Of a stretch of DNA of 64,000 nt, positions 8,984 to 55,822 are shown piece after piece. A program made the translations under genes and the position numbers. Within the stretch, counting starts at the first letter, position 1, and each line of letters starts with the position of its first letter. The notes beneath the pieces were generated by a model, which searched no databases, was not told where the DNA came from, and saw only the letters and a program-made list of their open reading frames with translations. Origin of the DNA: Methanocella paludicola SANAE (GTDB taxonomy: Archaea > Halobacteriota > Methanocellia > Methanocellales > Methanocellaceae); assembly GCF_000011005.1 (NCBI RefSeq), contig NC_013665.1, positions 2,271,501 through 2,335,500 on the forward strand, written 5' to 3'.

Positions 8984-9533
8984 CCTGTGCGCTGATTTGT
9001 TTGGTCGGTAACACGAACCTCTCCAAAGGAATTAAACCACGAATTCTTTCTTTTTATATTTTACTCACGAAGCCTCTAAGCCTCGAACTCACCGTCAATG
9101 CCCGAACTCTCTAATACTCTGGGCAGTGCTCTAAGTCACTAACACGCTAACCCGAAACGAATGCTCTAAGTCTCTAAATCACGTTTGAAACGCTAAACGG
9201 TGGAGCACTGCTCGAATTGCGAAGCAAAACACTCAAAGAGCCAGGTCGTTCCCCAGTACTTTTGGGTTTTAGTGGCGTTGGCGATTTAGCCGAGCCTTAG
9301 AGAGTTAGTGCTATGTCGTTTAGCGTTTCAAACGTGAATTCGAGCTTTTGGGAATTCATTTCGGGTTTGAGGCTTCGAGAGTTCGTGCACTGACCTGTGG
9401 ATTAGAGAGTTCGGGCATTGACGGTGAGCTAGAGACTTAGGGATTTAGTGAGAAAAAATTATAAAAGAAAATTAGTGGTTTATTTCCTTTGGTGATGTTC
9501 GTGTTACCGACCGAACTAATCAGCGCCCACAGG
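8984..9533. repeat. 550-bp imperfect palindrome (family 1)
   Basis: Two arms of about 230-270 bases face each other across a short centre near 9230-9260. The outer ends pair CCTGTG.CGCTGATT with its complement at 9518-9533. Then GGTCGGTAACACGAAC (9003-9018) pairs with GTTCGTGTTACCGACC. Further in, TCACCGTCAATGCCCGAAC pairs with its near-exact complement at 9406-9425. Near the centre CACGTTTGAAACGCTAAACG pairs with CGTTTAGCGTTTCAAACGTG. Identity between the arms looks like about 75-80 percent by eye. It fills the gap between two rightward genes (8956-9637) and contains no convincing gene. The vocabulary (CGAACTCTCTAA, CTCTAAGTC) differs from the other three palindromes. Confidence 0.9.
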
Positions 9534-17361: not shown

Positions 17362-18150
17362 ATGCTCGAGGTCTACTGCGATTCGTCCTTTAACGAGAAG
17401 GGCGTCTCTTTCATCGGCTGCGTCGCCGTGAAGGACGGCGTGGAGATATACCAGTCTACCGCCAGGGTCATGCCCGACCCGCTGCGCAATATCGAGTGCG
17501 AGATGGCCTCCATCGAGTTCGGCATCGCCGTCTCCGGGCTTTTCCCTGACCCCAGGACCGTCATTTACAATGACTCGACCGAGGCGGTCAAGGAATATCA
17601 GCTCCAGAAGAAAGGCGAATATTCGGTAGAATATGCGGCCCGGGAGACCCCGTACCAGTCGCTGGCAGACCGCCTGTCAAAAAGGTTCCCGCAGGGCTTG
17701 ATCGAGACGTACGGCCTCTGTAAAAAGCCCGTCGAGCCGTTCACCCCGGAGGTACTGGCGGATGTGGCCCGGGGGGCTACCGTGATATACCTCAAAAAGA
17801 GCGAGAGGGAGACCACGAACACGAAGACCGTCTACACGCTCATAGTCCGTACGATCGACGGCGTACTTTCCGACGATAAGAAATATGAGGCGAGGTCCGG
17901 CGAGGTCAAGAACATCAAGGTCGCCAGGGAAGTCTCCGCCGACCTCAGCGACCCGAACTTTGTAAAAGGCGTCGAGGGCCTGGACCTGGAGGGCTCGTAC
18001 TTCCTGCTGACGGATGAGACGTGGGGCCTGCGGCAGAAGGGCGGAGAGGCGTACACCATAATACCGTGCGGCGTGGCGCACCACGTCATCTGCCACGAGG
18101 TGGACCGCAGCCCTGAAAATCTCTTCAGGCGTGCCGGAGATGCGAAATAG
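17362..18150 (+). CDS. RNase H-like fold protein with unknown C-terminal domain
   Basis: The 262-residue protein starts MLEVYCDSSFNEKG. Three acidic positions fit an RNase HI-type site: Asp7 in YCDSS, Glu47 in NIECEMASIEFG and Asp71 in IYNDSTEAV, in the right order and spacing. The fourth acidic residue of RNase HI was not identified with confidence. Residues of about 130-262 form an extra domain with no recognised family, ending in GVAHHVICHEVDRS. It could process RNA-DNA hybrids or be a binding-only relative. The ATG at 17362 fits the fold; upstream in-frame codons are basic and non-conserved in type. Confidence 0.6.
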   Translation: MLEVYCDSSFNEKGVSFIGCVAVKDGVEIYQSTARVMPDPLRNIECEMASIEFGIAVSGLFPDPRTVIYNDSTEAVKEYQLQKKGEYSVEYAARETPYQSLADRLSKRFPQGLIETYGLCKKPVEPFTPEVLADVARGATVIYLKKSERETTNTKTVYTLIVRTIDGVLSDDKKYEARSGEVKNIKVAREVSADLSDPNFVKGVEGLDLEGSYFLLTDETWGLRQKGGEAYTIIPCGVAHHVICHEVDRSPENLFRRAGDAK

Positions 18151-18198
18151 CGCCCCACGGGGAAACTATTTTTATCGAACCAGCATAGTGCTTTATGC

Positions 18199-18327
18199 AT
18201 GGCGAAAAAGGGCTCCGGGAAAAGGCCAAAGGATAAAAATTTCAAGCTGGCTAAAAAGATCGTCGCTATACTGGCGTTCATCATAGGCTTCGCCGCTATG
18301 ACCTATTTTATCGTGATGAGCCTTTGA
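18199..18327 (+). CDS. 42-residue single-span membrane microprotein
   Basis: A short frame encodes a very basic N-terminus (MAKKGSGKRPKDKNFKLAKK) followed by one hydrophobic helix of about 20 residues and a stop. A TATA box ACTATTTTTATCG (18165-18177) lies about 25-30 bases before the ATG, giving a leaderless or nearly leaderless mRNA. The basic-then-hydrophobic organisation fits a protein with its N-terminus in the cytoplasm. No family is known to me. It lies between the RNase H-like gene and the next small gene. Confidence 0.6.
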   Translation: MAKKGSGKRPKDKNFKLAKKIVAILAFIIGFAAMTYFIVMSL

Positions 18328-18392
18328 GCAAACGGCAAATATATAGTAAATAAGCTCAGATTGGTATAGACTATCATACCGGAGGCTAAAAC

Positions 18393-18746
18393 GTGAGGGA
18401 CTGGGACGTCTGGCAAAGACACGAGAATTATAATTCTATCATAGCGTTAGCGTGCGAGCTGCCGAAGGAGACCATCGTAAGGCTCGAGAGCATCGGCCTG
18501 GTCGTCGACGACGGAAGTAAAAGCGCCGTTAAGGCCGACCAGCTATTCCTCATTCACGTCAGGGACCTTGATAAAAAGCTCTACTGGAGGAAGTACGACG
18601 AGTTCAAGGCGAAGTACAACGAAGAGCCCAGGCCAGTCCACCTCGAGGAGCTGCCGGAGCTCATTATCCGTTTCTTAGGCAACGTGAAGCCGGACCAGTG
18701 TATCGCGATCACTGACTTTACGCTGGACCTGCTGGGGAAGCAATAG
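18393..18746 (+). CDS. Hypothetical cytoplasmic protein
   Basis: The 117-residue protein begins with GTG (MRDWDVWQRHENYN) preceded by a strong GGAGG seven bases upstream. It is mixed helical and soluble, with LYWRKYDEFKAKYNEEPRP in the middle and LIIRFLGNVKPDQCIAI near the end. A TATA-like ATATATAGTAAATAAG lies near 18339. No known family was recognised. It is the last gene before the long palindrome and is convergent with the KGG gene at 19371. Confidence 0.6.
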   Translation: MRDWDVWQRHENYNSIIALACELPKETIVRLESIGLVVDDGSKSAVKADQLFLIHVRDLDKKLYWRKYDEFKAKYNEEPRPVHLEELPELIIRFLGNVKPDQCIAITDFTLDLLGKQ

Positions 18747-18843
18747 CATTTATAGTACTTATTTTTCTCTTTAAAGCTTTTTTAGCATTTATTAATATGA
18801 CTCTTCCGCGGTTTTGGGATGAATATTTTTTTATCCTTTTCTA

Positions 18844-19163
18844 GTTATGCCGTCGTTGAGTGGTCCAACCACAGAGGCACGGAGCGCACGGGAGTTTCAC
18901 AGAGTTTTATTTTAATAATTTAAGACTCAGAGGGCTCAGAGGCCGGTTTATTAGTTTGCCTGGGGCACAGAGTTTATTGAGGCTCGGTTGACCAATAAAC
19001 AATAATGCGGGTTTATCCTCGGCAGTGCCTCTTTCAACTCCGTGCCCCGGGAATGTTATAAACCCGTACTCCGTGGCCTCTGAGCCTCAATTATTAAAAA
19101 AATCTCCGTGAAGCTCTGCGCTCTCCGTGCCTCTGTGGTTGGACCACTCAACGACGGCATAAC
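18844..19163. repeat. 320-bp imperfect palindrome (family 2, copy 1)
   Basis: The outermost 41 bases of each arm (18844-18884 and 19123-19163) are exact inverted copies, starting GTTATGCCGTCGTTGAG. Inward the arms remain complementary at roughly 70-80 percent, with matching blocks CACAGAG, TTTTAATAATT, GGCTCAGAGG, GGTTTAT and GGGGCACAGAGTT. The tip contains the smaller dyad GTGGTCCAACCAC. The element lies between the ends of two convergent genes. Two further copies are at 39227-39570 and 55453-55768. Confidence 0.92.
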
Positions 19164-19370
19164 ATAAAAACGAGCGAAGGCATCAGCCAAAGCAATATAT
19201 CACCCCAAAAACGCACAAGAACCATTAATATTTTCAATGTTTATTAAGCCGCAATTCGCTATATCGTTAAATTATTAGACGGTCCTACGGATAAGCATCA
19301 CGATAATGCCATTATCGACAGCGTTCTCTCCGGTATCTCCGAACGCATTAAGTAAAACAGGATATTGAGA
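19164..19370. other. Intergenic remainder with perfect dyad and possible gene remnant
   Basis: After the palindrome this stretch holds a 17-base perfect dyad CGATAATG-C-CATTATCG (19301-19317). It also has a 35-codon open stretch (19248-19355) reading AIRYIVKLLDGPTDKHHD... and ending SGISERIK before TAA. That stretch has protein-like composition but no start codon, so it may be the tail of a lost gene. Nothing else was found. Confidence 0.3.
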
Positions 19371-19613
19371 TCATTTACCCGAGCGCAGCAGCTTGCCCCT
19401 CTCGATGAGCTCCTTGACCTTCTGGCCGCCCTTGTGGCCTATGTCCTCGTAAAAGCTGCCGCCGTAGCGTTCCTTGGTGGTCTCCCCGCCGATCTTTCCG
19501 CCCTTGCGGCCGATCTCCTCGTAAAACCCTTCCCCATAACGCGCTTTTGTCTTTTCACCGCCCTTATGGCCGGCTTCCTTGACAGTCATTACTCCTTTGC
19601 CTTTATCCGCCAT
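19371..19613 (-). CDS. KGG-motif small stress-type protein (second copy)
   Basis: This 80-residue protein carries several KGG motifs in repeats: AGHKGGEKTKARYGEGFYEE, IGRKGGKIGGETTKERYGGS and DIGHKGGQKVKELIERGK. It is a longer paralogue of the protein at 1730-1915; both end in a related LIERGK tail. The ATG at 19613 is chosen for its GAGGTG ribosome-binding site six bases upstream. The protein is probably disordered and stress-related; its function is not established. Confidence 0.8.
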   Translation of the reverse strand: MADKGKGVMTVKEAGHKGGEKTKARYGEGFYEEIGRKGGKIGGETTKERYGGSFYEDIGHKGGQKVKELIERGKLLRSGK

Positions 19614-19807
19614 TTCCACACCTCTATGTAATGTCGAAAAAATCTGCCCTTCTGTCGGCTTTATGGATACACGGTAATGTAATTGGCATAGGGCATTCAA
19701 TTTAACTAACGGATAACACGAGATTGCGCTTGAATTTTATAATATACTATATCCGCCTGACAGTTATGGTAAAAAACGCTTAAATCAATGTATAAAAAGA
19801 GGCAGGC

Positions 19808-20116
19808 TCACATCTTGAGCTCGATGAGGTCGGGAGAGAATCCGTAGCTCACTAAAAGCTTTTTTACTTCTTCCCGGTGGTCGCCCTGTAGCTCGATGCG
19901 GCCGTCCTTGATGGTGCCGCCGCAGGCGAATTTGGTCTTCAGCTTCTGGGAGAGTTCCTTGATGTTGACGTTCTTCGTATCGATGCCATCGATGATGGTC
20001 GTGATCTTCTTAAAACGCCGTGTGTTGGTATATACGCGAATTTTTTGGTTCTCCTTCGCCAGGTCCTCGCAAATGCAGAGGTCCGTGGGCAATCCACACT
20101 TATTGCAAACTTCCAT
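19808..20116 (-). CDS. Translation initiation factor aIF1 (SUI1)
   Basis: The 102-residue protein is archaeal aIF1/SUI1, which controls start-codon selection on the small ribosomal subunit. A cysteine cluster opens it (CNKCGLPTDLCIC), as in many archaeal members. The SUI1 core has TRRFKKITTIIDGID, LKTKFACGGTIKDGRIELQG and a DHREEVKKLLVSYGF end. It is transcribed leftward from its own TATA-like region near 20140-20160. Confidence 0.93.
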   Translation of the reverse strand: MEVCNKCGLPTDLCICEDLAKENQKIRVYTNTRRFKKITTIIDGIDTKNVNIKELSQKLKTKFACGGTIKDGRIELQGDHREEVKKLLVSYGFSPDLIELKM

Positions 20117-39117: not shown

Positions 39118-39226
39118 AAGGGCGATTTTTTCGCCCACTATTTTTTGTTCATGCGTGTTTTTAGAATAACTTTCCAGTTAAATAGCCCCGGAATATAATT
39201 TCGCTTATACTACTTCTCGCTTCGTC

Positions 39227-39570
39227 TTATGCCGTCTCGGAGTGGTCCAACCACAGGGGCACGGAGGGCAGAGGGTTACACAGAGATTTTTTAAAAAGGG
39301 AGGTCACAGAGGCCACGGAGACGGGTTTATAACTAGCCTGGGGCACAGAGTTGAAAGAGGCATAGTTGACGATAAACCACTTCCAGTTTATGTTTATTAG
39401 AAATTACTCATAAATTGTTTATTAATTAACCGCGCCTCTTTAAACTCTGTGCCCCGGATAAGCCAATAAACCGGGCTCCGTGGCCTCCGTGCCTCAAATT
39501 ATTAAAAAAAGCTCCGTGAACTCCCGTGCGCTCGGTGCCCCTGTGGTTGGACCACTCCGAGACGGCGTAA
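39227..39570. repeat. 344-bp imperfect palindrome (family 2, copy 2)
   Basis: The arms begin TTATGCCGTCTCGGAG and end with CTCCGAGACGGCGTAA. The tip GTGGTCCAACCACAG and GGCACGGAG blocks are shared with copies at 18844-19163 and 55453-55768. Inward blocks include CACGGAG, GGTTTATAA, CTGGGGCACAGAGTT and AGAGGC, each with a complement on the other arm. The centre (about 39370-39430) is A+T-rich. It occupies nearly the whole gap between the convergent rhodanese and ALDH genes. Confidence 0.92.
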
Positions 39571-39616
39571 CGGGAAAGAGAGCGTAGATAATTCAAACAG
39601 CGGGAGTATAACTTTT

Positions 39617-55362: not shown

Positions 55363-55452
55363 CCGGCTCTGCTTTTCCTTTTTTTATTTGTAGTTCTTGC
55401 GAGTTTTTGATTGAAAATTGTTTTAGTTGATACTGATCCTCGCCTTTATACA

Positions 55453-55768
55453 TTAAGCCGTCTCGGAGTGGTCCAACCACAGGGGCACGGAGAGCGCAGA
55501 GTTCACAGAGTTTTCTTATAGATGGAGGCTCAGAGGGCACAGGGGACGGGTTTATAACTAACCTGAGGCACGGAGTGCTTAGAGGCACTGGCGAGGATAA
55601 ACCTGCTAAATTGTTTATTGGTCAACCGTGCCTCGATTAACTCTGTGTCCCGGGTAAGCCAATAAACCGGGCTCTGAGTTCTCTGTGGCTCAAATTATAA
55701 AAGAAAAACTCTGTGAAACTCGGTGCGCTCTGCGTCCCTGTGGTTAGGAACACTCCACGACGGCATAA
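55453..55768. repeat. 316-bp imperfect palindrome (family 2, copy 3)
   Basis: The outer ends TTAAGCCGTCTCGGAG and CTCCACGACGGCATAA face each other. The GTGGTCCAACCACAG tip is present on the left, and its complement on the right has an A insertion (CTGTGGTTAGGAACACTCC). This copy is the most diverged. Inner blocks again are CACAGAG, GGGTTTATAA, GAGGCAC and GTTGACCAATAAA with complements. It lies between the ends of the convergent DUF4097 and small membrane-protein genes. Confidence 0.9.
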
Positions 55769-55822
55769 CGTGTAAAGGATTGAACAAAGAATTATCTGAA
55801 AACAATAGAAGTGTTTTTTTTA

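Follow-up and report, generated by a model that had tools for sequence, protein, structure and literature searches.

Copies, ends and target sites of the element

The window analysed here is a stretch of 64,000 nucleotides (positions 2271501-2335500) of the Methanocella paludicola SANAE genome, which consists of a single contig of 2,957,635 bp. A long palindrome at positions 18844-19163 of the window lies within a longer repeated unit, a miniature inverted-repeat element (MITE) with ends of the ISL3 type. The features are listed below in window coordinates.

18791..18798, no strand: left target-site duplication, ATTAATAT
18799..19223, plus strand: complete MITE, 425 bp, with ISL3-type ends around a palindromic core; delimited by the common extent of the aligned copies and by the 8-bp duplications
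18799..18822, plus strand: left terminal inverted repeat, GACTCTTCCGCGGTTTTGGGATGA
18844..19163, no strand: palindromic core, ORF-less relative of the GxxExxY-nuclease palindromes
18844..18884, plus strand: left exact arm, 41 nt
18994..19018, no strand: apex; the corresponding point holds a nuclease ORF in L109, L113 and L116 (aligned with the ORF left out)
19123..19163, minus strand: right exact arm, 41 nt
19200..19223, minus strand: right terminal inverted repeat, family form GGTTCTTGTGCGTTTTTGGGATGA with one change in the window copy
19224..19231, no strand: right target-site duplication, ATTAATAT
39226..39571, no strand: second ORF-less palindrome of the same family, without recognisable ISL3 ends
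55452..55769, no strand: third palindrome of the family, inside a MITE with decayed ends

No ORF of 60 or more amino acids was listed in the interior of the MITE. A 544-bp palindrome of another family, with arms 77-83% complementary and built of different units, was also seen at 8986-9529.

The sequence-only reading had made its case depend on further copies in the genome, and these are present. The copy search returned 90 candidates, and the 40 that were scored gave 40 palindrome copies; identity to the window copy is 91-98% for 21 of the others and 79-88% for the remaining 18. Roughly two dozen copies of this small mobile element, which carries no gene, are dispersed through the genome, the window copy among them. 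For the DNA alignment 42 palindromes were used, leaving out L001 (which is the window copy), L056 (split by an IS), L058, L064 and the ORF-bearing copies. The MITE copy L056 is disrupted at 595-1981 by 1.4 kb of inserted DNA, which has inverted ends of the TCCGTACTTCCGA type and an ORF of 387 aa. An extra segment in one arm, TTTTCGCTGATGCGAATTCGAG, marks a subfamily (L028, L029, L030 and L113) that includes an ORF-bearing copy. A literature search for Methanocella MITEs found nothing relevant.

Homology among the copies runs past the palindrome by 45 bp on the left and 60 bp on the right, so the repeated unit extends beyond positions 18844 and 19163. When recent copies were aligned together with their flanks, the likeness reached GACTCTTCCGCGG... 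at the left and ...CGCACAAGAACC at the right. The terminal inverted repeats of the MITE are 24 bp long and imperfect, and the window copy is bordered on each side by an exact 8-bp duplication, ATTAATAT. Across elements, most of them entered from both strands, flank identity was 0.92 at a length of 8, and the remaining lengths examined gave 0.43-0.62; mismatched pairings of flanks at length 8 gave 0.51. With each element counted once, 28 full-length elements had both ends, and at least seven of the eight duplicated bases agreed in 24 of them (8/8 in 19, 7/8 in 5). The remaining four scored 6/8 (two elements), 5/8 (one) and 2/8 (one); the last, L054, is the only one of the 28 without a matching duplication, and its ends may have been set wrongly. 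Of the bases in the left duplications, 96% are A or T.

Empty sites were sought by joining the flanks after removal of the element and one duplication. For L021, L026 and L238 the joined flanks could be aligned with CGCGAAG palindromes of this genome that lack the element; at L235 and L236, two of the five joined sites, the ends or the duplications gave no clean match. Common ends, AT-rich 8-bp duplications, many copies and empty sites together show that the unit is a MITE. As a side observation, the ORF-less CGCGAAG palindromes (L229, L233, L237, L243, L247, L249, L235, L236 and L238) often have outer flanks like TGTGTTGAATTAGCCTTATTTATCGGAGCA in common, and those with such flanks may lie inside a second MITE family.

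The sequence-only reading had called the palindrome MITE-like and had looked to 18844 and 19163 for target-site duplications. The multiple copies, the lack of an ORF, the inverted ends and the 8-bp duplications agree with the first point. The duplications flank 18799 and 19223 instead, so the exact 41-bp arms are not transposition termini. That the 320-bp palindrome is itself the transposing MITE, with the exact arms as its terminal inverted repeats, is accordingly very unlikely. Some palindromes of the family do occur outside recognisable ISL3 ends (39226-39571, L025, L060, L067 and the ORF-bearing L109 and L116), so the palindrome can stand alone and is separable from the MITE ends. However, both the homology of the recent copies and their target duplications stop at 18799 and 19223, and inspection of the free copies by eye showed no duplication at the palindrome ends.

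The ends point to the ISL3 family. When five ISL3 ends from the sister genus were compared with it, the left 24-bp end had 15-18 of 24 positions in common with them and the right end 15-19; the best MITE ends scored 18 and 19, against a background maximum of 16/24 in 279,400 comparisons. The sister-genus genome G001 holds five ISL3 copies of 1313 or 1324 bp, all five intact and with exact 8-bp duplications, whose ends are of the type GGCTCTTCTCCAAGGTTGGGATTG, GGYTCTTCTCC... The older MITEs L235 and L238 carry a related palindrome between ends that are very close to the 1313-bp IS of G001, and closer to the sister-genus element than are other MITE ends. The ISL3 transposase domain PF01610 is present in two sister-genus genomes and was not found in the host genome (0/1). 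A search of the host genome with the sister-genus transposase, run without a positive control, likewise gave no match (0/1). Because ends and duplication resemble those of the sister-genus elements and no ISL3 transposase was found in the genome, the unit is described here as an orphan ISL3-type MITE, and the family is probably stranded.

Exact arms and predicted fold

Positions 18844-18884 match the reverse complement of 19123-19163 at every base (0/41 mismatches), while complementarity in the interior of the core is imperfect; both had been noted from the letters alone, and exact arms proved common across the family. Among the 22 recent copies the arms agree at 41/41 positions in 14 and have one or two mismatches in eight. 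Two arm types were distinguished: TCCTT occurs on both arms of the ORF-bearing L109 and L116, and GTCC on both arms of most recent copies. Mosaics with one type per arm were found in 6 of the 42 copies, among the older ones. From these mosaics, the exact arms are best read as the product of a conversion of one arm by the other that preceded the burst; such an event in a founder copy would account for outer arms that are exact around an interior that is not.

A stretch of 340 nt folds at -196 kcal/mol, compared with -94 +/- 6 kcal/mol for 100 dinucleotide shuffles (z = -15.7), and 75-100% of the base pairs in the window structure are retained in all 42 aligned copies. Such values would be expected if the fold were functional and selected, as a structured RNA, a terminator or a cruciform, with the copies kept for its sake. 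High pairing is also expected from common descent of a palindrome, and the substitutions argue against selection. Of the single changes at paired positions in the 22 recent copies, 54 break a pair and 23 preserve it, and double compensatory changes number one against 1.14 expected by chance. Among the 20 older copies, 11 double changes kept the pair and four broke it, against 22 expected. Rfam gave no match in window positions 18000-20000 or in L109, L119, L002 and L235. Since compensatory changes are at chance level, selection on the fold, for which the interior complementarity had been taken as an argument, finds no support, and we regard a selected fold as extremely improbable. The complementarity is an inheritance from a palindromic ancestor, and some copies of the ancestral type carry a nuclease gene at the apex.

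Palindromes that encode GxxExxY proteins

In the host genome, the PF13366 genes are enclosed in long inverted repeats. For L109, L113 and L116, the arms flanking the nuclease ORF match the window core at 77-82% identity; each arm aligns over 140-180 bp, and the order is the same. The GxxExxY gene is absent from the window core, so that the window copy is at most a derivative, and not a member, of the GxxExxY element proposed below. Short CACAGAG-like units are present in unrelated families and phyla, and the resemblance could in principle be owed to such units, with no common descent from the ORF-bearing copies. The length and order of the matching arms, the position of the ORF at the apex and the match of the non-repeat stretches TTGACCAATAAACA and GTTATGCC speak against this, and leave it scarcely credible. 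By homology, the window core would be an ORF-less derivative that sits inside an ISL3-type MITE, with loss of the gene as the probable direction of change.

Two of the encoded proteins, those of L109 and L105, were scanned, and both match TIGR04256 (GxxExxY) and PF13366. Among L109, L113 and L116, dN is 0.020-0.026 and dS 0.185-0.255, values that indicate purifying selection on the protein. An alignment of 49 members (leaving out L173, which has a stop codon, L157 and L189) showed G35, E38, Y41, D78, K90 and Q102, among others, to be invariant, and E88 and Y106 to be nearly so. The AlphaFold2 model of the protein, for which this alignment was used, has a pLDDT of 94 and a pTM of 0.87. Foldseek found no match to it at E <= 0.001, and no solved relative was credible by sequence (best E 0.32). 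With VIA-align, the Cas4-like SSO0001 (4ic1) ranked first at Z 9.2; next came other nuclease folds, with Z <8. The structural matches fit a nuclease fold for the model; they do not indicate a substrate.

Inverted repeats were then scored around GxxExxY genes elsewhere. In the Methanocellales, repeats scoring >28 were found within 350 bp in 11 of the 13 loci with a readable ORF. The archaeal scan listed 24 loci, of which L115, L117 and L120 had no match to the ORF pattern; L115 has an inverted repeat of 291 bp. A set of 80 GTDB loci from many phyla was used, 77 of them with both flanks; a score >28 was reached in 49/77, against 7/1493 for controls placed within these loci. Paired CRCNRAG units, inverted on both sides, occur in 33/80 GTDB loci against 0/670 controls, and 69/80 have the pair on one side and strand or more, the motif having been framed from the Methanocellales loci and after the repeats of the same 80 loci had been seen. 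Independent checks gave weaker results: further archaeal loci had inverted repeats >28 in 3/7 and the motif pair in 1/7, and plasmid loci had both in 2/8 by the automatic test. Among the plasmid loci, L255 and L256 show inverted units by eye, beyond the automatic cut; L257 has a direct repeat, L260 an inverted repeat of 11 bases, and L258 and L259 nothing clear.

Presence and absence were compared at two loci. In Sphingomonas parapaucimobilis fabD and fabG are separated by a GxxExxY gene and its arms; the two neighbours adjoin, free of such an insert, in Sphingomonas paeninsulae and Rhizobium indigoferae. In Bacteroides finegoldii the gene and arms lie between radA and the next gene; in Parabacteroides distasonis these two adjoin without the insert, and Phocaeicola massiliensis has a different, unrelated-looking insert at that place. 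In the host genome, L119 and L121 hold identical ORFs at two sites (0/390 differences), and the similarity stops at the palindrome ends. A separate observation concerns a Gemmatirosa kalamazoonensis plasmid (L253), whose GxxExxY region matches at least 26 and at least 23 places in two large replicons.

GxxExxY genes were found at one locus in IMG/VR, in 0 of 50,697 phage records and in 8 of 72,556 plasmid records. The four-helix 23S-IVS protein (PF05635) had no match in four genomes of the order, and the control genomes were likewise without a match, which makes this negative uninformative. A literature search on intervening sequences gave nothing relevant among the matches listed, and five example 15-mers of the repeat do not occur in the open-licence literature that was available. 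In that literature the names GxxExxY, PF13366, TIGR04256 and PDDEXK_3 are rarely mentioned.

Presence and absence at the same sites, purifying selection and the architecture of the arms suggest, without proving it, that the GxxExxY palindromes are a class of mobile element. In its full form the proposal is that GxxExxY genes are the coding part of undescribed, very widespread small mobile elements, in which a nuclease of about 130 aa and PD-(D/E)XK fold lies between inverted CRCNRAG arrays and would process their hairpin or cruciform. The abundant ORF-less palindromes would be the non-autonomous form, and the window element a shell of this kind that found its way into an ISL3-type MITE. For this proposal as a whole we see about even odds.

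Interpretation and comparison with known systems

Our preferred reading, to which we give a probability of roughly 0.86, is that 18799-19223 is a non-autonomous MITE with ISL3-type ends, carrying the shell of a GxxExxY palindrome as cargo, and that its outer arms were evened by conversion before the burst. The unit would have been mobilised in trans by an ISL3-family transposase through recognition of its 24-bp terminal repeats. Against this reading stand the negative searches for an autonomous partner in the host genome, the incomplete agreement of the ends with those of the sister genus (15-19 of 24), the one element without a matching duplication and the two joined sites without a clean match. 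The cargo would be a long palindrome that in other copies has a GxxExxY PD-(D/E)XK gene at its apex, the gene having presumably been lost here. As the mosaics suggest, arm-to-arm conversion in a founder copy may have made the outer arms identical before the recent burst.

The MITE itself is of a known, ordinary kind; the novelty lies in its core, the shell of another element. It is a clean orphan example of one mobile element's shell inside another's ends, and accounts for two dozen long palindromes in the genome. The GxxExxY palindromic element is the more interesting part. The wider point is the function of the GxxExxY proteins, whose genes, in many phyla, are often flanked by inverted CRCNRAG arrays and were found in two cases, together with their arms, as inserts between neighbouring genes. 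If these palindromes are mobile elements, the common annotation 'hypothetical nuclease' and a class of intergenic palindromes would receive one explanation that can be tested biochemically.

The window MITE resembles the ISL3 insertion sequences and their MITEs in its AT-rich targets and in its 24-bp imperfect inverted ends, which are similar to those of the 1313- and 1324-bp elements of the sister genus. It differs in that no transposase lies inside it and none was found elsewhere in the genome, and in that its interior is a foreign palindrome and not a deleted IS. With the GxxExxY family (TIGR04256; PF13366, PDDEXK_3) the window core shares the arms of the palindromes that encode the protein; unlike them, the window copy has no ORF, and the libraries list the family as a protein only.

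REP and REPIN sequences are described, in the available part of the source, as short palindromic repeats of 20-40 bp (PMC3733652); at 320 bp the window palindrome lies outside that size. As far as the REPIN/RAYT system is set out in the available part of PMC3116915, both systems combine many non-autonomous, hairpin-forming copies with a few that encode an enzyme between inverted repeats. The enzyme here is a protein of predicted PD-(D/E)XK fold and not a tyrosine transposase, the palindromes are 200-320 bp long, and the recent copies were probably spread by ends of the ISL3 type.
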